Assembly: GCA_021846965.1 (NCBI GenBank) | Contig: JAJZWA010000010.1 | Location: 1 to 64,000, forward strand | Direction: 5' to 3' | From: Pseudomonadota bacterium | GTDB taxonomy: Bacteria; Pseudomonadota; Gammaproteobacteria; Burkholderiales; Burkholderiaceae_C | Length of the DNA stretch: 64,000 bases | In this document: positions 29,372-63,802 of the stretch, piece by piece | Layout: each line of letters begins with the position of its first letter | Numbering within the stretch: position 1 is the stretch's first letter | The notes under the pieces: model-generated | Databases searched by the model: none | Seen by the model: only the letters and a program-made list of their open reading frames with translations | What the model was told of the DNA's origin: nothing | Position numbers and translations under genes: made by a program

Positions 29372-30550
29372 TCAGGCCGTGGGCAGGTCGCGGCGCGCCT
29401 GCTCCAGATCGTGGGTCAGGCGCTGCAGCAAGCCGGAAATCTCGGACAGCGCGGCCTGTGCCGCCTGCTCGCCTGCATGGCGCTGCTGCGCCTGCTGGTC
29501 CAGCTGCGACAGGCTGGCGGCCTGGGCCTCGGCGGTGTCGACCGTGGTCTGCAGCGCGCGCCGGGCATCGCTCACCGCGCCCTGCGCATGGGCCAGCAGC
29601 GTGGACAGGCGCTCGACCTGCTGCACGGCGGTCTGCATGTCGCGCCCCAGGCTTCCCGAGTTCTCGCGGATGACCAGGGTCAGGTCCTCGATGCGCCCGG
29701 TGATCGACGCCGTCTTGCGCGCCAGGTTGCGCACCTCGTCGGCCACCACCGCGAAGCCGCGCCCGGCCTCGCCGGCGCGCGCCGCCTCGATGGCGGCATT
29801 CAGCGCCAGCAGATTGGTCTGACTGGCCACTTCCTGGATACCCGCCGTCAGTTGCTCGACCGTGTTCACGGATTCGACGAAGGAGGCGAGCTTGCCCTGC
29901 GTGTTGCCGATGAAGCCGCTGACCTCGCGTGCCTCGGCTTCGACGCTGAGCAGCGCATCGCCACTGCGGCCCACCGCCTGCGCGCCTTCGCCAGCGCGCG
30001 CCTGCAGCTGCGCGCTGGCCTGCAGCGCGCGCTGCGCGGCCTGCACCGCCTGCGCCCCGGCCGTCTCGTCGTCGCGCAGGCGCTGGGCCGCGGCCTCGAA
30101 GGCGCGCAGGCAGGCGTTCGCGCCACCCTCGGCCGTGCCGAGGCGCTCGTGGGCCTCGCGCAGCTTGCCCGAGGCCGCGCCGGCCAGTGCCGCGCGCAGA
30201 TCCTCGAAACGCCTTGCCCAGGCGGCGCCATCGATCAGGCTGAGATTGCGCAGTGCATGATCCTGCCCGTCCTGCAAGAGGCTCAGGACGGCCGCGAGCA
30301 CGCTCTCGCGGTCGGATTTGAGCCGGGCCAGCAGGCCGGCCTGCGCGCCGCCCCCGAAGGCCGGCGCGGCCGCCTCGGCGCCGGCTGCCGGCGCGCCTTG
30401 CGCGGACGCCTCGGACGCCTCGGAGTCGACCAGGGCGCCGAGTTCGCCCGCCTCCGATGCGGCGCCGGGCGGGGTGTCGGTGGTGGGGGGCTCGCCGGCT
30501 TCGGCGACCGGATCCTGCGGGGGCATGTCGCCCGGATTCGATGCGTTCAT
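29372..30550 (-). CDS. Soluble methyl-accepting chemotaxis protein
   Basis: [47 protein letters not shown]; no TM segments. Confidence 0.92.
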
Positions 30551-30556
30551 GGGAAA

Positions 30557-31315
30557 TCAGCGAGAGTGCACGGCCGAGCCGACGTCGAGTGCGGCGAACC
30601 AGTCGATGAAGCGCTTCACGTTGGCACCGCTGTAGATGGCGCCGTGCTGCGGGCAGAGAAAGTCGATGTCCAGCCGCGACACGCGCTCGCACCAGTCACG
30701 CTTGGCCTCGTTGCTGGGCATCCAGCGCTTGTGGAAATACTCGGCGTGGCGGATATGCTCGTCGAAGGCCTTGGGAGAGTCGACCTCGCGGCGATCCACG
30801 AAGGCGTCATGGCCCGGAGGCAGCAGCGCCGCGCCCACGTCGCCGCTGAACAGGACCTTGGCCTGCGGGTCGTACAGATGGAAATTGGCCGAGGAATGCA
30901 GGTAGTGCGCAGGGATCGCCTGCAGGCGCGCGGAGCCCAGCGTGAGCTCCCCGCCATCGTCGGGGATGCCCTGGATGGTGGCGTCGAGGGCGCCGTAATG
31001 GCGGATGAATCCGACCCACAGGCGCGAGGTATGCCAGGTGATGCCCTTGTTGCAGGCGTTCCACAGCGGCAGGCTGGAGGCGATGTCGGGGTCCTGGTGG
31101 CTCACGAAGGCCTGCTCGACGCTGGACGGCGGCAGCACGTCCACCAGCGAGGCGAACACCTGCGGGAACACCTCGAATCCGCCTGGGTCGCACAGCAGCG
31201 TGTGCCCGTCCACCTGGCAGGCATAGACGTTCGAGTCGATGACCCGCGTCTCGTCCTGGTCGTAGATGACGTACCAGTGGTGCGACCCCTCGGAGTAGAA
31301 CTTGTGCGCTTTCAC
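30557..31315 (-). CDS. Metallo-beta-lactamase-fold protein, ODP (oxygen-binding diiron)-like
   Basis: FVSHQDPDIASSLPLW (HxDPD), IPAHYLHSSANFHLYDPQAKVLFSGDVG, LCPQHGAIY metal-ligand motifs. Confidence 0.8.
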   Translation of the reverse strand: MKAHKFYSEGSHHWYVIYDQDETRVIDSNVYACQVDGHTLLCDPGGFEVFPQVFASLVDVLPPSSVEQAFVSHQDPDIASSLPLWNACNKGITWHTSRLWVGFIRHYGALDATIQGIPDDGGELTLGSARLQAIPAHYLHSSANFHLYDPQAKVLFSGDVGAALLPPGHDAFVDRREVDSPKAFDEHIRHAEYFHKRWMPSNEAKRDWCERVSRLDIDFLCPQHGAIYSGANVKRFIDWFAALDVGSAVHSR

Positions 31316-38917: not shown

Positions 38918-39649
38918 TCAGAGCCGGCCGTCGCGCAGCAGTTCGCGGTCGCGACGCTGCACGTAGCGCTGCAGCAGGCGCTGCTGGGGCATCGACAGAT
39001 GCTGCAGCGACAGGCCGACCAGGCGGGCAGCAGCCTCGCCCGCGGTGGAGCGCAGCACGCGCACGAAACGAAGTTGGGCGGCGCACTCGATAAGCTGGCC
39101 CTCCAGCTCGAATTGCAGGCGCTCGATCCACTCATTGCCCGCCAGGTCGAAGTCGCCAGGCGCCGGGGCGCGCAGGCGCATGCCGCTTGCGCTCAGGTCC
39201 AGGCACTCGGCCTGCAGGCTGCGTGCGCCGCGGCGGAAGAGTTCCAGTCCCGACACGTCGCCGGGCCGCACCGGCACGCGATAGTTGGCGCGGCGCTGCA
39301 ATTGGTACAAGGCATGCGGCCAGCGCAGGCGCAAGGCACCGTAGCCCTCCCAGTCCTGCAGGCGCTCGAGGGTGCAGCGCAGGCCGACGAACATTCCGCC
39401 GGCGCGACCCAGGCACAGCAGTTCCTCCCCGGCCCGCAGGGAGGCGAGGCGCGCCGGGTTGAGCTCGTCGATGATCAGGAACTGCTCGTCGGGGTCGACG
39501 TGCAGCAGCATGGACATGTGCTCGTGTTCCTCGCCGGGCACGATCACGCCCAGGATCTCGCGCCCGCGCTGCAGGCGCTCGAGGGTATGGTGGGCGCGCG
39601 CGGCCACGCGGAACCCGTCCTGGAACAGGGTGTTGACGATCTCTCGCAT
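38918..39649 (-). CDS. ycgR: Flagellar brake protein YcgR (YcgR-N + PilZ)
   Basis: Two-domain layout: YcgR-N-like HMSMLLHVDPDEQFLIIDELNPA, then PilZ-like ANYRVPVRPGDVSGLELFRRGARSLQAECLDLSASGMRLRAP. Confidence 0.88.
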   Translation of the reverse strand: MREIVNTLFQDGFRVAARAHHTLERLQRGREILGVIVPGEEHEHMSMLLHVDPDEQFLIIDELNPARLASLRAGEELLCLGRAGGMFVGLRCTLERLQDWEGYGALRLRWPHALYQLQRRANYRVPVRPGDVSGLELFRRGARSLQAECLDLSASGMRLRAPAPGDFDLAGNEWIERLQFELEGQLIECAAQLRFVRVLRSTAGEAAARLVGLSLQHLSMPQQRLLQRYVQRRDRELLRDGRL

Positions 39650-39715: not shown

Positions 39716-40993
39716 TCAGAGCCCCAGGTTCTCCGCCCAGGCCAGGGCTTCCAGGTGGGCGAGGGCGATCGCGCGCTGGCTCAGGCCCAGCAGGCCCGCA
39801 TGCTGGTCGATCTCGTCCCAGTCCTCGCGCTCACAGGCCAGCACGATGCGCAGGTAGGGGCCGAAGGGGCCCTGCCGGTCGCGCAAGGCCTGCATCACCG
39901 GTTCGGCCAGCGAGATCTCCTGCAGCGCGCGCTCCAGAGGCACCCCCAGCATGGCGTCGAGCATGGAGAACACGCCGACCACGAAGGCGTTGTCGCAGTC
40001 CGCGGCGGACATCTGCGCCTGCGCCAGCAGTTCCAGCATGCGGCCGCGGGTGATGGCCACGCGCGCCTGGCTCGACGCCGCGCTGCTGCCCGGGGTGATC
40101 GCCAGCAGCAGCACCAGCCAGCGCAGCAGTTTCTTGTAGCCCAGGATCACCACCGCATGGCGGAAGGAGGTGATCTCGGTCATGAGGCCGAAGCCCGAGG
40201 AATTGATGTAGCGCAGCAGCTTGAACGACAGCGTGGGGTCCTGCTTGAGCACCTCCTCGATGGCCGGCACCTCCGCATGCTTGTTGACCAGGTCGATGAG
40301 GCGCAGCACGGTCGCGTAGGCGGGGTTGACCACCTTCGCGCTGACCGTCTGCGGCCGTGCGAAGTAGTAGCCCTGGAACAGGTGCAGGCCGGCGTCGAAG
40401 TACTCCTTGAAGTTCTCCGGGGTCTCCACCTTCTCGGCGAGCATCAGCAGCTTGGGAAAGGCGCCCATGCGCTTGACCAGCATCGGCAGCACGCCTGCCG
40501 GCAAGGCCTGCACGTCGATCTGCACGTAGCTCAGCAGCGGCAGCCAGGCCGTGTAGGGGGCCGTCAGCGCGTGCACGCCGGCGGCCAGGCGGAAGCCCTT
40601 TTCGCGCAGCGACTGCATGGCGGTGGCGGCCTCGGCGATCAGCGCCGCATCGTCGCCCGCGGCGCGCGGGAGCTCCAGCACGATGCGCTCGGGGAACACG
40701 ATCTCCAGGTGCTCCCCGTCCAGGTCCTCCAGGCGCACGTTGATGAACGCCAGCTTGTCGCCGAACAGATTCTCGGTGGAGATGCTCGACAGCGCGTGGA
40801 ACAGCAGCGCGGTGTCGGATGCGCGGGTGTGCTGGGTCGGTGCCTGCGTGCTGGTGGCGCTGTCGCGCGCCAGCAGTTCGTAGCCGATGATGTGCTGCTG
40901 ACGGTCCAGGATCGGCTGGCGGGCGATATGCGCGTAGTTCTCGCTGCGCGCGGCATCGGCGGCCGGGGATGCGGGAGTCGTGGTGGATTCCAT
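39716..40993 (-). CDS. EAL/HDOD (YuxH-type) protein, EAL probably degenerate
   Basis: ARQPILDRQQHIIGYELLARDSA with YELL replacing EAL core; HDOD segment IEEVLKQDPTLSFKLLRYINSSGFG. Confidence 0.9.
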   Translation of the reverse strand: MESTTTPASPAADAARSENYAHIARQPILDRQQHIIGYELLARDSATSTQAPTQHTRASDTALLFHALSSISTENLFGDKLAFINVRLEDLDGEHLEIVFPERIVLELPRAAGDDAALIAEAATAMQSLREKGFRLAAGVHALTAPYTAWLPLLSYVQIDVQALPAGVLPMLVKRMGAFPKLLMLAEKVETPENFKEYFDAGLHLFQGYYFARPQTVSAKVVNPAYATVLRLIDLVNKHAEVPAIEEVLKQDPTLSFKLLRYINSSGFGLMTEITSFRHAVVILGYKKLLRWLVLLLAITPGSSAASSQARVAITRGRMLELLAQAQMSAADCDNAFVVGVFSMLDAMLGVPLERALQEISLAEPVMQALRDRQGPFGPYLRIVLACEREDWDEIDQHAGLLGLSQRAIALAHLEALAWAENLGL

Positions 40994-41109: not shown

Positions 41110-44100
41110 TCAACGCGTCCAGGCGCGCATCCAGGTGTCCAGGTGGTCCTCGAGCATCCAGTTGGCGAGCACCTTTTCACGCAGCGCGTCGCCCTGGGCG
41201 CGCAGCGCCTGGGGCTCGCCCACTGCGTCCTGGATGGCGCGCACCCAGTCGCGGAAACGATTGGCCACGCGCACGACAGGGAAATCCCCCTGGTAGGGCG
41301 TGATGTCCGAGCAGATCACCGGATAGCCGAGCACTCCGTATTCGAGCAGGCGCAGGTGGCTCTTGGCCTCGTTGAAGGCATTGTGTTCCAGCGGGGCCAC
41401 CGCCAGGTCCAGGTCCAGCTCGGCCAGCTTGGGCGCGTATTGGTCCAGCGGGATGCCGGGATGGAATTCCCGCACCACGTCCTTCAGCTCGGGGGGGCAC
41501 AGGCCGAAGAACACCCAGTCCACCTGCGCAGCGGTCTCGCGCACCACCTCCACGATGAGTTCCAGGTCCCCGCTGTGGCCCACGCCGCCGGCCCAGCCCA
41601 CCCGCAGGCGCTTGCGCTCGGCGCGGGCGGGTCGCAGCCCGCCCCAGCGGGCCCGCTCCAGGTAATTGGGGCACACCAGCACCTCGTCGCTGAATCCGGC
41701 ATAGGCCTTGGCCAGCGGCTCGGTGGCCACGACCAGGCGGTGGCACAGGCCCGCGGCCTTGCGGAAGCGCTTGGCGATGTCCTTGTGGATATGTGCGCGG
41801 TGCACGCTCTTGACCGGCAGGTTGGTGATCAGGTCGTCGATCTCGAACACCCGGAAGGCGCGCATCAGGCGTGCATTGCGCTCCAGGGCCTCGATCTGAG
41901 GCCATTCCATCTGGCGCTGCACCACCAGGCTGTCGGCGTCGATGCGTTGCATTTCGGGCGCCTGGAACAGACGCATGGTTTCCCAGCCCTGTGCCAGTCC
42001 GGCCCGGTTGAGCGCACGCAACGGGGAAATGATGCGGTACTCGCCGCAGCCCTCGCGATCGGCCGGGTGCACCAGGATGCGCGGACGCGGGCGCCATTCG
42101 GGGTCCCAGGCCAGCGGCGCCTGGTCATCGAGCAGGAATTCGGTGGTGGCCAGGCTGAGGTGCCGGTTGTAGGCCGGGTCGCGGGCCAGCACCGGGAGCC
42201 ACTTGTCGTACATGGCGTCGCGCTCGGAGGCGAAGCGTTTCTGCTTGGCCTCGTCGGGCTTCTCCTCGACCTTGCCGCGCTGGCTGGCCGACCCCTCGTG
42301 CATCAGCAGCGCGTAGGGCGTGAATACCACGCGCAGGCCGGCGGCTCGCACGCGCAGGCACAGGTCGATGTCGTTGTAGGAGACCTTGAAGGCCTTCTCG
42401 TCCAGGCCGCCGAGCTGCTCGTACAGGCTCTTGCGCACCAGCAGGCAGGCTCCGGTGACGGCGCTGAGATCCTGCACCAGCTGTGCCCGTCCGAAGTAGC
42501 CGCGATCCTCCGGGGCTCGTCCCAGGAAGGGGTGCTCGGCGGGCCCGCGCACGCCCAGGATCACCCCGGCGTGCTGGATCTTGCCGTCCGGGAACAGCAG
42601 CTTGGCGCCCACCGCGCCCACGTCGGGGCGCACCGCCTGGGCCATCATCTCGTCCAGCCAGTCCTCGTGCAGCGCGGCGGTGTCGTTGTTGAGCAGCAGC
42701 AGGAACTCGCCGCGCGCGTTGCGGGCGGCGAGGTTGTTCATGGCGGAGAAATTGAACTCCCCCGGCGCCCGCACCACCCGCAGGCGTCCGCCCAGCTCGG
42801 CCTCGCGCGACTCCACCGTGGCGAGGTAGCGCATCGCGTCGTCGGCCCGGCTGTCGTTGTCGATGATCAGGATCTCATAGGCCGGGTAGCGGGTCTTCTC
42901 GATCACCGATTCGATACAGCGCTGCAGCATGGGCAGCTGGTCGCGCGTGGGAATCAGGATCGACACCAGCGGACGCGGCTCGGGAAGCGGCCAGCGCACG
43001 CGGAACGCGGGCGGGAAGGGGCCACCCTGCACCTGCGCGGAGATGCCCAGCCGGTCGAAATGCGCCTGCAGCACCGCCTGCCCCATGCTCAGGATCTCGG
43101 GCACGCTCTTGCGCGTGTGCCCCGAGCCGGCGCGTCGGTGGTACAGCACTTCCGGCACATGGCCGATGGCCGACTCGGCGATGCCCTCGGCCTGCAGTCG
43201 CTCCCAGGCCCGCAGCGCGAGGTCGTAATCCTCGGCCCCCTCGCGGGCCGCATCGAAGCCCCCGAGGGCCTCGAACAGGTCGCGGCGCACCAGCATCAGG
43301 CCTCCGATGTAGGGCAGGCTGCGCAGGAAATCCAGGTTGAAGTCCGGCTTGCAATGCGGGTTGAGGTGCTGGCCGTCGGCGGTGATCCCGTCCTCGTCGG
43401 TATACACCAGGCGCCACTCCGGGTGCAGGCGAAGCGCATGCTGGATCCGGAACAGCGCGTCGGGGGCGATCATGTCCTCGGCGTCGATCAGGCCCAGCCA
43501 GGACTCGCCGGAGTCGAGCAGGGCGCGGTCGGCAGCCCGGATGGCCTCGGCGGCGCCGCCGGAGCCGTCGATGCGCAGCAGGCGCATCGGCTTGCCGGTG
43601 GGCCACTGGCCGGCCACCGCCTGTTGCGTGCTCCTGCCGGGCATGTCCTCGCGCGTGGCGATCATGGCCAGTGCCACGCCGGGCGTGTGGGCGGGTTCCC
43701 ACGCGGCGCAGCATTCCTGGGCCCAGGTGAATTCCTGGGGCAGCAGGCGGTGCGAGGGCAGCCAGGGTTGCAGCGCAGGCGCCGCGGGCGCGGGGGCCGG
43801 GGGAGCCGGCGCCGCCTGTGCCGTGCTGAGGTGGGCGACCGTGATCGGGGCCTTGTACGGCGTGTCCGCCGCGATGCGCTGGGTTCGGGCGACGAAGTCG
43901 CGCAATTGCTCCTCGAAACGCTGCAGCAGCGAGGCATAGCGTTGTCGAACCCGGTGCACGGTGCTGCGTGCATGCTCGAGGGCCTCGGGCGAGGTGCCCC
44001 AGGCGATGCCGTCGTCGCCGAACTCGTCGCCGGCGAAACTCGATTTGAGATGGGGGTTCGGCAGGAATACCACCGGACAGCCGCACAAAAGCGCCTCGAG

Positions 44101-44799
44101 TGCGAGGGAGGAGTTCTCGTAGCAATAGAACGCCTCGCTGCGCTGAAACAGCGCGATGATCTGTTCCCGGGTCTGGATCGGGCGATCGAGCTTGAAGGTG
44201 CCGCCCAGATCGCTGAGGATTTCCGTGCTGTCCCTGGTGACGTCCAGCAGCTTGCCCCGGTGCAGCAATTGGTATTTGCTGGCGTAGAAGCAGGTGCCCT
44301 GGCGCCGGACCGAGGGATCGGGCCGGAACTGGTTCGGGTCGGACACCGGCAGGTACAGGGTGCACAGCGCCTTGGGGACCGAGCGGCTCAGGATGTCGGT
44401 GTGGCCCACGCAGTATTCGGAGGGCGGGAACTGGGCGTCGCCGCCGAGGGCCCCGGGCAGGTTGAGCAGGTAGCGAACCACCAGCGGCGCCGCGAAGGGG
44501 TTGCCGCGCAGGGTCTCGGGATAGACGGTGACGGGCGTGCGCCCGGCCGCGAAGTCCGCCGCGATCTGCTCCCGGGTGAGCAGGGGGGTGCGCAGATCGG
44601 GGTTGACGCCCGCGCCGGGCGGGACCGCCGCGGGCAGAATCAGGTAGGCCCTCTCCCCGCTCTCGTTGAGACTGTGGCAGAGATGGTGCAGGACGCGCAC
44701 ACCCGCCGAGGTGCGTGAATAAAACGGCGCGAAGATGTAGTAGGGATGCCGAAGACGCGGAAAGATGAGGCTGTGGATGTCGTCATTCGTCGAAGTCAT
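41110..44799 (-). CDS. 1229-aa multidomain glycosyltransferase, candidate flagellin glycosyltransferase
   Basis: N-terminal FAPFYSRTSAGVRVLHHLCHSLN; GT2 segment VSILIPTRDQLPMLQRCIESVIEKTRYPAYEILIIDNDS...LLLLNNDTAAL; C-terminal GT-B-like part WAGGVGHSGDLELI...SHLRLLEYGVLGYPVICSD. Confidence 0.85.
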   Translation of the reverse strand: MTSTNDDIHSLIFPRLRHPYYIFAPFYSRTSAGVRVLHHLCHSLNESGERAYLILPAAVPPGAGVNPDLRTPLLTREQIAADFAAGRTPVTVYPETLRGNPFAAPLVVRYLLNLPGALGGDAQFPPSEYCVGHTDILSRSVPKALCTLYLPVSDPNQFRPDPSVRRQGTCFYASKYQLLHRGKLLDVTRDSTEILSDLGGTFKLDRPIQTREQIIALFQRSEAFYCYENSSLALEALLCGCPVVFLPNPHLKSSFAGDEFGDDGIAWGTSPEALEHARSTVHRVRQRYASLLQRFEEQLRDFVARTQRIAADTPYKAPITVAHLSTAQAAPAPPAPAPAAPALQPWLPSHRLLPQEFTWAQECCAAWEPAHTPGVALAMIATREDMPGRSTQQAVAGQWPTGKPMRLLRIDGSGGAAEAIRAADRALLDSGESWLGLIDAEDMIAPDALFRIQHALRLHPEWRLVYTDEDGITADGQHLNPHCKPDFNLDFLRSLPYIGGLMLVRRDLFEALGGFDAAREGAEDYDLALRAWERLQAEGIAESAIGHVPEVLYHRRAGSGHTRKSVPEILSMGQAVLQAHFDRLGISAQVQGGPFPPAFRVRWPLPEPRPLVSILIPTRDQLPMLQRCIESVIEKTRYPAYEILIIDNDSRADDAMRYLATVESREAELGGRLRVVRAPGEFNFSAMNNLAARNARGEFLLLLNNDTAALHEDWLDEMMAQAVRPDVGAVGAKLLFPDGKIQHAGVILGVRGPAEHPFLGRAPEDRGYFGRAQLVQDLSAVTGACLLVRKSLYEQLGGLDEKAFKVSYNDIDLCLRVRAAGLRVVFTPYALLMHEGSASQRGKVEEKPDEAKQKRFASERDAMYDKWLPVLARDPAYNRHLSLATTEFLLDDQAPLAWDPEWRPRPRILVHPADREGCGEYRIISPLRALNRAGLAQGWETMRLFQAPEMQRIDADSLVVQRQMEWPQIEALERNARLMRAFRVFEIDDLITNLPVKSVHRAHIHKDIAKRFRKAAGLCHRLVVATEPLAKAYAGFSDEVLVCPNYLERARWGGLRPARAERKRLRVGWAGGVGHSGDLELIVEVVRETAAQVDWVFFGLCPPELKDVVREFHPGIPLDQYAPKLAELDLDLAVAPLEHNAFNEAKSHLRLLEYGVLGYPVICSDITPYQGDFPVVRVANRFRDWVRAIQDAVGEPQALRAQGDALREKVLANWMLEDHLDTWMRAWTR

Positions 44800-44940
44800 G
44801 GCGTTCCCATCGAAAGACCGCGCGCAGCCGCGGTCACGGTCGCGTTCCCGGAAGGGACGATCATAGTGGAGCCCCCGACCCGCCCGAGGCGTGGGGGATC
44901 GAGGGCGAGTACCCCTGCCGGGCGGCGGGGCGGCAGGCGC

Positions 44941-46206
44941 TCAGAGGTACTTGAACAGGCTCAATCCCTGCAACTGCGAGAAGGCGCTTTCCGAAGCCTG
45001 CAGGGCCGTCAGGCTCTGCTCGTACTGCGAGATGGTCGCCGGATAGTTGATGCTGGCGATGGTGGTCTGCTGGGTCTGCAGTTGCAGGGTCACGCTGGAA
45101 TTCTGGCTTTGCACGGCCTGCACCTGCTGCAGTCGACTGCCGATCGCCGACTGCGTGCCCAGCAGCACCGTCTGCGCCTGATCCAGGCTGGCGAGGGTGT
45201 CGGAGATGGCCTGCGCGCGGCGCGCGCTGGAACCGCTGCTCGCTCCGCTGCCGCTGAAGGCCTGCTGCAGGTCCAGGAAACTGGCGAACAGGCTCTGGGG
45301 CTTCGAGCCGGCGATGGTGAAACTGTCGCCGGCGGCCGGAGCCCCCAGGATCGGCACCTCGATGGCCGGGTTCGCCCCCGGTGGCAGCCCGATGCTCATG
45401 CCCGAGCTGAAGCTCCCGCTGGACACCACGCCCGAGGCCGAGAAGGCCGCGCCGCTGCCGCTGCTCACCGAGTACACCAGCCCGCCTCCGCTGGGCGCGG
45501 CGCTGAAGCTGATCTGGTATTCGGTGCCGCCCACGGTGAGCAATTGCTGGGCCAGCGAGGGGTTGTTCACCGTGCCGGGGCCGGCGGTGGCGCCGCCGGC
45601 ATTGCTCCCGCTGGCCGATACGCTGAACGTGCCGTTGCCTCCGGGGATGTTCATGAACACCGCATTGCCGGGATCGCCGATGGCCGTGCTCAGGCTGGGG
45701 CCCAGCGCGAGCTGGTTCTGGGCGCCGTCGCCCTGGTAGAGCACCTGGCCGTCGGACTGCAGCACGAAGGGCTGGGTCTGGGTCTGGCTGCCGGCGAACA
45801 CGTAGTTGCCCTGGCCGTCCTGCGTGTTGCCGTACTGCACCAGCTGCTGCAGATAGCCCTGCATGGTGGTGGCGGCGTTCTGCAGCTGTTGCGGGTCGAC
45901 GGTGCCGTTGTTCATCTGCAGCGCCAGCTGACGCACCTGCTGCACCAGGGTGCCCACGCTTTGCAGCGTGGAGCTTTCCAGTTGCAGCGACTGCTGCGCG
46001 TTGCTGCCGTTCTGGCTGAAACCCGCAAGCTGCCCGATCTGCGCCGTCAGCGACACGTTCTGCGCCACGGCCACCGGTTGCGCCGAGGGGTTGACCAGGG
46101 CATTGCCCGTGGACAGCTGCTGGCTCAGGGTGGTGAGCAAGGTCTGCTGTTGCAGGATGCCGCCCAGGCTGGCGGCGTAGAACTGGTTGCTGCTGATGAT
46201 CTGCAT
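44941..46206 (-). CDS. flgL: Flagellar hook-associated protein FlgL
   Basis: Starts MQIISSNQFYAASLGGILQQQTLLTTLSQQLSTGNALVNPSAQPVAVAQN; flagellin-like ends; next to flgK. Confidence 0.93.
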   Translation of the reverse strand: MQIISSNQFYAASLGGILQQQTLLTTLSQQLSTGNALVNPSAQPVAVAQNVSLTAQIGQLAGFSQNGSNAQQSLQLESSTLQSVGTLVQQVRQLALQMNNGTVDPQQLQNAATTMQGYLQQLVQYGNTQDGQGNYVFAGSQTQTQPFVLQSDGQVLYQGDGAQNQLALGPSLSTAIGDPGNAVFMNIPGGNGTFSVSASGSNAGGATAGPGTVNNPSLAQQLLTVGGTEYQISFSAAPSGGGLVYSVSSGSGAAFSASGVVSSGSFSSGMSIGLPPGANPAIEVPILGAPAAGDSFTIAGSKPQSLFASFLDLQQAFSGSGASSGSSARRAQAISDTLASLDQAQTVLLGTQSAIGSRLQQVQAVQSQNSSVTLQLQTQQTTIASINYPATISQYEQSLTALQASESAFSQLQGLSLFKYL

Positions 46207-58357: not shown

Positions 58358-60316
58358 GTGAACCTCGCCCAAGCCAGCCCCGGGGATCTGCGCGCGGCCT
58401 TCGGCCTCGATGCGCGCGAGTTCCTGGCGCGTTTCGATGACGCCGTGCGGGAGGCCTGCGAGCGGCGCGACCAGCAGGCCCTGGGCGCCGCCGCCGAGGC
58501 CCTGCGGGGCATTCGCATCGGGGCCGAGTTCCTCGGCCTGGAGGCCCTGTCGGAGGCCTGTCGCGAAGTCGAGCGCGAGTTGCTGGTGCAGTTGCCGCAT
58601 CTGGACGCGCAGGCCGGATCCGAGCGTGCCCGCATGCATCGTCTGGCCCGTGCCCTGCACGAGGCCATGGAGCAGTTCCTGCGCGAAGCCCCGGCCGCGG
58701 ATGCGATGCCGCCGCGGTCTGCCGAGCCGCAGGCACAGGACAGCGGCGCCCTGGCGCCTCGGCTGAGCCTGGTCGCGGCCCAGCCGGCGTCACGGGAAGC
58801 CCTGGCGCAGCCGAGGGGGGTGGGCGAGGCGCGGGCGACGGGCGCCGAGCCGTTCCTGCCCGCGACGCAGCCTGTATCCCTGGCGGCAGCGGCGCCCGGG
58901 GCGCAAGCCTTGCCCGAACCGGACGCGGCGCCCGAGGCGGAAGTCGTGCCCGAGGCGGAAGTCGTGCCCGAGGCGGAAGTCGTGCCCGAGGCGCAAGCGG
59001 CACCCGAGGCCGAAGCCGTGCCCGAGGCCGAAGCCGCGGCCGAGGCGCAAGCTGCGCCCGAGGCGAGGGCGGCCCCGGCGGGGGAGGTTGCGGCCCAGGC
59101 CGTGGTCGAGGGCGGTCTGGCGGGCCGGCCGCAGGATGCCGACGAACAAGCTGCCGAGGCCGGGAGCGACGCGCGGCCGGATTCGTCCTGGAACGCCCGG
59201 GACCTGGCGACCTGCCTGCAGCAGGCGGTGGAACCCTTGCGCGAAAGCCTGGCGCAGACCAACGAGCTCCTGCGGGGGCAGGTGCAGGGCTGGGAGGGGC
59301 TGCGCGAGATCCTGTCGCAGGCACTGGCAGCGGCGGCCGAGCAGGCCCGCTGCCTGGCGAGCGAGGCTGCGGGCGAGGCGGCCTCGCGGGCAGCTGCGGA
59401 GGCGGCCTCGCGGGCAGCTGCGGAGGCGGCCTCGCAGGCGGCTGCGGAGGCGGCCTCGCGGGCGGCTGCGGAGGCCGCGTCGCAGGCTGCCACGGAGGCG
59501 GTATCGCGGGCGGCCACGGAGGCGGCATCCCAGGCAGCCTCGGCGGCCTCGGCGGCCGCGGCGGCGGCTACGCAGGCTGCGTCGGAGGCCGCAGGGCAGA
59601 TCGCAGCGCAGTGGGCGTCGCAGGTGGCGTCGCAGGTGACGTCGCAGGTCGTCGAGGCGCTGCGCGAGCAGGCCGCGTCGATGCCCGCCGCTCCGGCCGA
59701 GCCTGCCACGGTGCGCGACCCTGCCTCCTTGCCCATGGCGCAGGGCAGATCCGGGGAGGAGGGGCCCGGCGTGGAACCGGATGGTGAGGCGGCGGGCGAG
59801 GTGTCGAGCGAGGTGTCGAATTGGCACGGCGTATTGCAGGTGCAGCTGGCGCGCCTGGGGCCCTGGACCCTGGCCTTGCCGGCCGAACAGGTGCTCGGTC
59901 AGCTCGCGGCGCCGGCGCGCCTGCTGCAACTGCCCCAGGGCGATACCCTGGTGCTGACCGAGCATGGTGCGCTGCCCGAGGTGGGGCTGGAGTCCTGCTG
60001 GGGCCTGCCCGCCGGGCCGGACGCCAGCGATTACCTGCTGCTGCGCGACGGGCAGATCGGCTATGCGCTGCGTGTGCAGGAGTTGCTGCCGCGGCAGGCC
60101 CTGCATTTCTGGGCCCTGCCTGCGCAGTTGGGGGCTCCGCTGGGCCTGGCCGCGGCGGCGGTGCTGAACGATGCGCCCCAGGTCCCCGGGCTACAGCCCG
60201 CGGCCTCCGAGCTGGCCCTGCTGCTGGACCCGGGCTTCGTCGCCTGGGAGCATGCACGCTCGCAACGCGCTCGGCAGGCTGCCGGGTGCACGACCCTGGA
60301 GCAGGGGGAGTCATGA
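58358..60316 (+). CDS. HPt-like / Ala-rich repeat / CheW-like fusion protein (GTG start)
   Basis: N-terminal helical HPt-like segment, PEAEVV and EAASRAAA repeats, C-terminal CheW-like WHGVLQVQLARLGPWTLALPAEQVLGQL...; stop overlaps next ATG. Confidence 0.7.
   Translation: MNLAQASPGDLRAAFGLDAREFLARFDDAVREACERRDQQALGAAAEALRGIRIGAEFLGLEALSEACREVERELLVQLPHLDAQAGSERARMHRLARALHEAMEQFLREAPAADAMPPRSAEPQAQDSGALAPRLSLVAAQPASREALAQPRGVGEARATGAEPFLPATQPVSLAAAAPGAQALPEPDAAPEAEVVPEAEVVPEAEVVPEAQAAPEAEAVPEAEAAAEAQAAPEARAAPAGEVAAQAVVEGGLAGRPQDADEQAAEAGSDARPDSSWNARDLATCLQQAVEPLRESLAQTNELLRGQVQGWEGLREILSQALAAAAEQARCLASEAAGEAASRAAAEAASRAAAEAASQAAAEAASRAAAEAASQAATEAVSRAATEAASQAASAASAAAAAATQAASEAAGQIAAQWASQVASQVTSQVVEALREQAASMPAAPAEPATVRDPASLPMAQGRSGEEGPGVEPDGEAAGEVSSEVSNWHGVLQVQLARLGPWTLALPAEQVLGQLAAPARLLQLPQGDTLVLTEHGALPEVGLESCWGLPAGPDASDYLLLRDGQIGYALRVQELLPRQALHFWALPAQLGAPLGLAAAAVLNDAPQVPGLQPAASELALLLDPGFVAWEHARSQRARQAAGCTTLEQGES
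58931..59065. repeat. 18-bp coding tandem repeat (cccgaggcggaagtcgtg-like, ~7.5 copies)
   Basis: Encodes PEAEVVPEAEVVPEAEVVPEAQAAPEAEAVPEAEAAAEAQAAPEA. Confidence 0.85.
59375..59542. repeat. 24-bp coding tandem repeat (gaggcggcctcgcgggcagctgcg-like, ~7 copies)
   Basis: Encodes 8-residue EAAS(R/Q)AA(A/T) repeats. Confidence 0.85.
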
Positions 60317-62191: not shown

Positions 62192-63802
62192 ATGGCCATT
62201 TCCGGCATCATCAACACCAATATCAACGCGTTGAACACCCTGAACGCGTTGGGCAACACCACCAGCAGTCTCAGCACCTACATCCAGCAGCTGTCCACGG
62301 GCAAGCAGATCAACGGCCCCGCCGACAACCCTGCCGGCTATTCGATCGCGCAACGCTTCCAGACCCAGATCAACGGTCTGAACCAGGCCGTTTCCAACGG
62401 CAACCAGGCGGTGTCCCTGGTGCAGACCGCCACCGGCGCGCTGCAGAATGAAACCAACCTGCTGCAACAGATCCGCACCATCGCGGTGCAGTCGGCCAAC
62501 GGCTCCAACACCACGCAGGATCGTCAGTCCCTGCAGAGCGTGGTGACCCAGCTGCTGGCGCAGGTGCAGACCATCGCCACGCAGACCCAGTTCAACGGCC
62601 AGAACCTGCTCGACGGCACCTTCGCCGGCTCGCAGTTCCAGGTCGGCGCGAACTCCAACCAGATCATCAACGTCTCGGTGGGCAACGCGCAGACCAGCGC
62701 GCTGGGCAACTACACCACGACCACCTCGGGCGCGGTGTACACCACCTCGGGCGCGTACTCGGTCGACGGCTACCTGGGCGGCGGCGCCTTCACCATCACC
62801 TCCGGCGGCACGGCGGGCAATGGTGGCGCGGGCAATTTCAGCATCGGCACGCTGGGGGTTTCCGGCTCCGTCGGTTCGGCCGCGGTGTCGATCTCCAGCA
62901 AGGACGAATCGGCTGCCTCGATCGCCACCAGCGTCAACGCGGTGTCCTCGCAGACCGGCGTGACCGCCCAGGCCTACACCAGCGTGGCCTTCACCGTCGC
63001 CGCCTCGGGCAGCATCAGCTTCTCGCTGAGCAACGGCACCTCCGGCACCCCGACCAATGCGGTCAACATCTCCGCGACCATCACCGGCAGCTCCGGCAGC
63101 TACGACCTGAGCTCGCTGGTCTCGGCGATCAACAACCAGGCCGCCACCACCGGCGTGTCCGCCGACACCCAGGTGGTCAACGGCACCCAGGAGATCGTGC
63201 TGACCCAGAGCCAGGGCCAGAACGTGGTGATCCAGGCCAGCAGCGGCAGCGCCGCCTCCGGCCTGGCCTCGGGTTCGACGGCTTCGCTCAATGTCGTGGC
63301 CAACACGGTCAACAGCGACGGCAGCCAGTCCGAGTCCTCCATCGGCGGCGCGCTGTCCAGCGGCTCCGGCAGCCTGCTGGTGCAAGGCGTGGTGCAGTTC
63401 GAGTCGGCCAGCTCCTACGCCGTGGGCAACGCTTCCGGCATCGGCTTCAGCAGCGCCGCGGCGACGCTGTCGTCGGGTTCGGGCGGCTCGCAGGTGGCCA
63501 GCGTGGACGTGAGCACGGTGGCGGGTGCCAACCATGCCATCGCGATCCTGGACCAGGCCATCAATGCGCTGAACGCGCAGGGCGGCGCGTTGGGTGCGGT
63601 GCAGCAGCGGGTGCAGGCCTCGGTGAGCAACGCGCAGACCGCGGCGACCAATCTGCAGTCGGCGCAGTCGGTGGTGCAGGACGCGAACATCGCCTCCGCC
63701 ACGACCCAGCTGTCGAAGTTCCAGATCCTGCAACAGGCCGGCATCTCGACCCTGGCGCAGGCGAACGCGCTGCAGCAAAGCTACCTCAAGCTCCTGCCCT
63801 GA
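62192..63802 (+). CDS. fliC: Flagellin
   Basis: MAISGIINTNINALNTLNALGNTTSSLSTYIQQLSTGKQINGPADNPAGYSIAQRFQ; C-terminal D0 helix; SD AGGAG. Confidence 0.97.
   Translation: MAISGIINTNINALNTLNALGNTTSSLSTYIQQLSTGKQINGPADNPAGYSIAQRFQTQINGLNQAVSNGNQAVSLVQTATGALQNETNLLQQIRTIAVQSANGSNTTQDRQSLQSVVTQLLAQVQTIATQTQFNGQNLLDGTFAGSQFQVGANSNQIINVSVGNAQTSALGNYTTTTSGAVYTTSGAYSVDGYLGGGAFTITSGGTAGNGGAGNFSIGTLGVSGSVGSAAVSISSKDESAASIATSVNAVSSQTGVTAQAYTSVAFTVAASGSISFSLSNGTSGTPTNAVNISATITGSSGSYDLSSLVSAINNQAATTGVSADTQVVNGTQEIVLTQSQGQNVVIQASSGSAASGLASGSTASLNVVANTVNSDGSQSESSIGGALSSGSGSLLVQGVVQFESASSYAVGNASGIGFSSAAATLSSGSGGSQVASVDVSTVAGANHAIAILDQAINALNAQGGALGAVQQRVQASVSNAQTAATNLQSAQSVVQDANIASATTQLSKFQILQQAGISTLAQANALQQSYLKLLP

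Follow-up and report, generated by a model that had tools for sequence, protein, structure and literature searches.

A large glycosyltransferase gene embedded in a flagellar gene cluster raises two questions: what does the enzyme modify, and how did it come to keep one end constant among relatives while the other differs? The gene lies in a stretch of 64,000 nucleotides (hereafter, the window), whose host was assigned to Thiomonas based on the close relatives of that name in the genome collection. An earlier note on this DNA had proposed a three-part enzyme, encoded right after flgL, that builds an O-glycan on flagellin as a single polypeptide.

A four-domain glycosyltransferase encoded next to flgL

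The ORF call and translation bore out the 1229-aa reading frame, and flgL was indeed found directly upstream in the same orientation, across a gap of 141 bp. Orthologues in two other genomes (G006 and G008) match the protein at 95% over its full length, and a third (G003) holds a homologue as two contig-edge pieces. Among these genomes and the source genome (G000), which share one type of N-terminal module, dN/dS is 0.09-0.12 in this module and 0.13-0.22 in the first GT-A domain; it is 0.04-0.07 in the rest of the gene. The end-to-end conservation and low dN/dS, N-terminal module included, indicate that the gene is genuine and constrained, and not a product of chance or misassembly. A promoter scan at the locus found no sigma-70-like site and a terminator scan gave matches at chance level only; both were uninformative.

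Pfam together with AlphaFold2/Foldseek revealed four glycosyltransferase folds rather than three, in the order GT-B, GT-A, GT-A and GT-B.

41110-44799, minus strand: multi-domain glycosyltransferase gene, 1229 aa (ORF and translation, full-length orthologues, dN/dS well below 1)
43825-44799, minus strand: N-terminal module, residues 1-325, GT-B fold, exchangeable (AlphaFold2 and Foldseek)
43771-43824, minus strand: Pro/Ala-rich join, residues 326-343, before the conserved PWLP..R start of the core (junction comparison across alleles)
43027-43680, minus strand: first GT-A domain (GT2a), residues 374-591, with YTDEDG and EDYDL motifs (AlphaFold2, Foldseek, alignment)
42172-42972, minus strand: second GT-A domain (GT2b), residues 610-876, with NND and NDID motifs (Pfam PF13641/PF00535, alignment)
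41113-42099, minus strand: C-terminal GT-B domain, residues 901-1229, with the FNEAKSHLRLLEYG motif (PF13524 and Foldseek)

Structure prediction, which had been suggested as a check, recovered the expected N-terminal GT fold, GT-A and C-terminal GT-B, and added a further GT-A that brings the count to four. The central GT2 domain that had been read from the segment VSILIPTRDQLPM...LLNNDTAALHEDWLDEMM is present as a GT-A, and this segment is the second of the two. Pfam on the full protein gave a strong GT2 match (residues 610-835), faint signs of another GT2 around residues 496-534 and a GT-B-like match at 1109-1224, and the PF13524 score for the C-terminal GT-B fell just under the cut-off. The N-terminal module had no Pfam match; its AlphaFold2 model (pLDDT 81.9, pTM 0.82) matched GT-B enzymes in Foldseek. 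The model of the core (residues 342-1229) reached a pLDDT of 74.7 and a pTM of 0.47, so the mutual placement of its domains is uncertain. A PDB sequence search with the protein returned weak chondroitin synthase matches only, and the folds were therefore compared instead: in Foldseek, the tandem GT-A part of the core resembles the chondroitin polymerase K4CP and the GT-B part resembles GlgM, with the C-terminal GT-B matching the GT-B enzymes 7qsg and 6tvp. No NCBIfam family scored above its cut-off, and neither a Maf (MAF_flag10) domain in Pfam nor a phosphotransferase family was found in the protein, the N-terminal module being a GT-B fold.

The GT2 catalytic motifs are intact (DED/ED in GT2a, NND/NDID in GT2b). 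Within the genus, the C-terminal GT-B shares 77-88% identity and has an unbroken FNEAKSHLRLLEYG motif in all alleles, and GT2a is the least conserved core domain (55-65%). The same architecture was also found in Pseudomonas duriflava, P. peli and one betaproteobacterial MAG, and in Xylophilus with an N-terminal extension, so it is not unique to this locus. At two homologous loci (L028 and L038) the NND motif of GT2b has decayed (LLMLDGAAA and LLLDSRTAA) with the rest of the core kept, which suggests from the alignment that an inactive domain may be retained in the chain.

Flagellar association and proposed function

The gene is flanked on both sides by genes with constant positions in the genus, and the proposed acceptor is encoded in the same window.

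44941-46206, minus strand: flgL, left homology arm (Flagellin_N match; relatives have a FlgL of 61-97% immediately before the island)
39716-40993, minus strand: EAL/HDOD-domain gene, constant right neighbour (Pfam and synteny)
38918-39649, minus strand: PilZ/YcgR flagellar brake-type gene (Pfam and synteny)
62192-63802, plus strand: fliC, proposed acceptor, 536 aa (Flagellin_N match; Ser/Thr composition)

Beyond the EAL/HDOD and PilZ/YcgR genes downstream, fliW and csrA lie on the opposite strand. The fliC gene is about 17 kb from the glycosyltransferase gene and not adjacent to it. Near fliC, a 652-aa ORF of unusual composition (58358-60316, plus strand) has ends that look Hpt-like and CheW-like and, between them, a long heptad-like repeat rich in Ala (SRAAAEAASQAA...). 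Elsewhere in the window, a metallo-beta-lactamase-like protein (30557-31315, minus strand) is encoded next to cheA and the gene for a chemotaxis receptor (29372-30550); together they may form a diiron oxygen-sensing chemotaxis module.

Among 25 Thiomonas genomes, the core and flagellin were both present in 19 and both absent from 4, with 2 discordant (Fisher p=0.0019). The 19 include one genome (G009) known only by a contig-edge fragment, the exclusion of which gives p=0.0023; both discordant genomes (G007 and G015) are draft assemblies. At Thiomonas loci with readable flanks the gene follows flgL and precedes the EAL/HDOD-YcgR pair within the flagellar cluster. In a sample of 80 named homologous loci, 53 had FlgE/I/J/K/L, FliC or FliD in the flank, 4 were truncated Thiomonas contigs showing the EAL/HDOD-YcgR side, and 5 had FlhB-like or MotAB genes nearby. 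By all criteria, about 62 of the 80 (from Pseudomonas, Dyella, Acidithiobacillus and others) had a flagellar neighbour. The glycosyltransferase gene is followed at once by fliC-fliD in Pseudomonas, Methylophaga and Andreprevotia, and two Pseudomonas loci (L132 and L135) have the order flgL, Fgt1-like GT, Fgt2-like GT and sugar genes.

About 18 of the 80 loci had no recognised flagellar neighbour, so the family of this core may have a role in other glycans too. This fraction fits a transferase for LPS, capsule or exopolysaccharide that happens to sit in a flagellar operon, as do the resemblance of the tandem GT-A folds to chondroitin and heparosan polymerases and the occurrence of a close, stand-alone relative of the N-terminal module (54%) in what appears to be a polysaccharide cluster of the source genome. 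Such a role is nevertheless unlikely, given the genus-wide position between flgL and the EAL/HDOD-YcgR genes, the absence of the core from flagellin-less Thiomonas, and the fliC-adjacent homologues in other genera.

The middle regions of FliC, FlgK and FlgL had been described as Ser/Thr-rich, and the composition agreed: Ser and Thr make up 32% of FliC residues 171-440, 26% of the FlgK middle and 21% of the FlgL middle, versus 8-10% in the glycosyltransferase and CheA. This richness is consistent with glycosylation and is not diagnostic of it. Since the gene adjoins flgL/flgK and both products are enriched over the comparison proteins, they could be targets besides or instead of FliC; we consider this improbable, as FliC is the highest in Ser/Thr and the characterised relatives modify flagellin. 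The proposal of the earlier note that flagellin is the target is well supported, short of proof, by position, co-occurrence and homology to islands of the Fgt1 kind.

We conclude, with a probability of about 0.8, that the protein is a flagellin O-glycosyltransferase akin to Pseudomonas Fgt1/FgtA, with several domains and a cytoplasmic site of action. With four GT folds in one chain, the building of an O-glycan by one polypeptide is plausible, and we infer which domain adds which sugar as follows. The enzyme would act in the cytoplasm, its four domains working one after another on Ser/Thr in the middle of FliC ahead of its export. It is the constant C-terminal end that would dock flagellin and attach the first sugar, with the GT-B domain as the leading candidate for this step at roughly even odds; this domain is constant and has an intact motif in every allele, and the fgt2-like gene, which has no GT-B, matches by layout the pv. 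tabaci gene whose loss does no more than make the glycan shorter. GT2b was set aside as the priming domain, its NND motif being lost at the two loci mentioned above. The first sugar would probably be rhamnose from dTDP-Rha; a gene of this donor pathway (rmlD) is present in the source genome. The GT-A domains would lengthen the chain, and the N-terminal GT-B module would add or cap a distal sugar. No sugar-related genes lie between flgL and the glycosyltransferase gene in the source-genome allele; many other alleles have them.

Exchange of the front part of the gene

Comparison of the Thiomonas alleles showed, at the sequence level, that the front part of the gene has been exchanged between lineages. 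The C-terminal GT-A/GT-B part is constant among relatives, and a cassette that begins at the flgL stop codon and ends midway through the first GT-A domain is swapped. The gene is a mosaic, which the earlier note could not have seen in one sequence, and its N-terminal third is one of many interchangeable modules.

43490-44940, minus strand: exchange cassette, flgL stop codon to about mid-GT2a (DNA homology to other alleles stops, then resumes)

The core is common to all Thiomonas alleles: a variable join, in many cases rich in Pro/Ala, gives way abruptly to PWLPxxRxLPxE, where the core begins. DNA homology between alleles stops at the flgL stop codon and returns near core residue 86-96 (~43,490-43,500), a border seen in G000/G004, G004/G012, G021/G002 and contig C19 of the source bin; between G004 and contig C102 of G008 it returns at about residue 129. 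The clearest pair is G021/G002, with 94% for FlgL, 96% for EAL/HDOD, 96% for GT2b and 97% for GT-B, 71% for GT2a, and unrelated N-terminal modules. T. delicata and G013 have dS values of 0.25 in the N-terminal module, 0.32 in GT2a and 0.63 in GT2b plus GT-B, a reverse footprint, which would fit the entry of one common cassette into backgrounds that had already diverged. GC content did not mark the cassette off from its surroundings, and a GC skew raised over about 43,500-45,000 was given no weight.

By our own count, Thiomonas has about 13 cassette types, often with sugar-nucleotide genes. They include GT-B (the source allele), GT-B with RgpF, methyltransferase with RgpF, methyltransferase, a different methyltransferase, two GT2, two GT2 with RgpF, GT-B with GT2, GT2, and others. 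The GT-B module of the source type was found within the genus only in G000, G003, G006 and G008, and has relatives in Pseudomonas and Xylophilus. One relative (54%), the free-standing gene in the polysaccharide cluster of the source genome (L026; G000:C48:22501-23406), may be where the module came from. Outside Thiomonas, 73 named homologues fell into 36 N-terminal clusters, with domains including GT9, GT92, GT61, GT2, RgpF, methyltransferase, sulfotransferase-like and CDP-glycerol phosphotransferase-like.

A 9.6-kb contig of the source bin (L025; G000:C19:1-9578) seems to carry another allele of the flgL-GT interval, with ATP-grasp-like, oxidoreductase-like, FkbM-like, FdtA-like, radical-SAM-like and aminotransferase-like genes followed by a glycosyltransferase with RgpF. 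Its exchange boundaries are the same as those of the source allele. Neither end of the contig has an exact 20-mer in common with the window, which rules out a simple assembly branch of the same strain. The allele on the contig has diverged and comes either from a second locus or from a co-resident Thiomonas; we do not claim two copies in the source genome. Another Thiomonas genome has two flgK-flgL-GT loci with different cassettes (G011:C8 and G011:C68; L027 and L028), which points either to a pair of flagellar systems or to a bin of mixed origin.

MAGs make up many of the genomes, C19 may be a mis-binned contig of another Thiomonas, and divergence is faster in the first half of GT2a than in the remainder; the apparent exchange might thus reflect chimeric contigs, mis-binned species or fast divergence. 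This explanation is very improbable: G021 consists of 6 contigs, T. delicata DSM 16361 is a named strain, the module of G002 was found again in G020, and the dS contrast between T. delicata and G013 argues against it. Moreover, the modules belong to different Pfam families, so divergence cannot have produced them.

In terms of mechanism, a flgL-to-mid-GT2a cassette would be replaced via homologous recombination, and therefore the distal glycan would change with the flagellin-docking part kept. On balance, we favor reading the flgL-GT interval as a dedicated flagellar-glycan diversification locus, a principle that would hold across many Proteobacteria. The fixed C-terminal docking and priming unit would double as a recombination arm onto which GT-B, GT2, GT9, GT61, GT92, RgpF, methyltransferase and sulfotransferase-like N-terminal modules are swapped; upstream sugar genes would travel along, and one exchange would yield a new chimeric enzyme. 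If true, nature has provided a series of chimeric transferases with one flagellin-docking end that differ only in the front module. With these, one could test directly which domain selects the protein acceptor and which determines the sugar, a question that work on O-linked flagellin glycosylation has left open. It would also explain quick changes of flagellar surface glycans in environmental bacteria, and help to annotate many large genes next to fliC that are labelled 'glycosyltransferase'.

Comparison with known glycosylation systems

Variable flagellin glycosylation islands are already known (PMC4875605, PMC3927599). Our searches of the open-access literature turned up no account of cassettes being exchanged within a flagellin transferase gene; the exchange border inside the transferase gene is the new part, and the earlier note is right in outline. 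The enterobacterial islands vary between strains and some of their transferases contain methyltransferase domains (PMC4875605). They share with Thiomonas the variable gene content at the flagellar locus and the GT-methyltransferase fusions, but have different core enzymes (GT41, GT25 and other GT2), and no description of a border inside the transferase gene was found for them. The K4 chondroitin polymerase (KfoC/K4CP) shares the tandem GT-A arrangement (Foldseek E=4e-15) at about 13% identity, whereas the Thiomonas enzyme has a GT-B at both ends and a flagellar setting.

In P. aeruginosa PAO1, PA1091/FgtA is a transferase fused to a phosphotransferase, and flagellin of the mutant is nonglycosylated (PMC11833859). 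Like the Thiomonas enzyme, it is a large GT2-family transferase in a flagellar cluster with a fused second decorating activity, but carries a phosphotransferase domain where the Thiomonas enzyme has the GT-B module. In P. syringae, fgt1 and fgt2 precede fliC, and the fgt1 product adds rhamnose to Ser (PMC3927599); deletion of fgt1 leaves flagellin unglycosylated (PMC3402453, PMC12915359) and deletion of fgt2 leaves it partially glycosylated (PMC12915359). The likeness to Fgt1/Fgt2 of P. syringae/amygdali pv. tabaci was drawn via Pseudomonas loci of the same layout, not from the Fgt1 sequence itself. At one of these (L132), the protein in the Fgt1 position has ~1200 aa and the order GT2a-GT2b-GT-B, with 34-49% per domain to the Thiomonas enzyme. 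The N-terminal module is GT2 in the Pseudomonas loci and GT-B in Thiomonas. The flagellar-cluster setting is shared, although the Thiomonas gene adjoins flgL with fliC 17 kb off, and the Fgt1/Fgt2 island has a second GT, sugar genes and a nearby fliC, unlike the source locus. By kinship and probable function, the Thiomonas enzyme very probably belongs to the Fgt1 group of flagellin transferases and, as the phosphotransferase is absent, is not FgtA proper.
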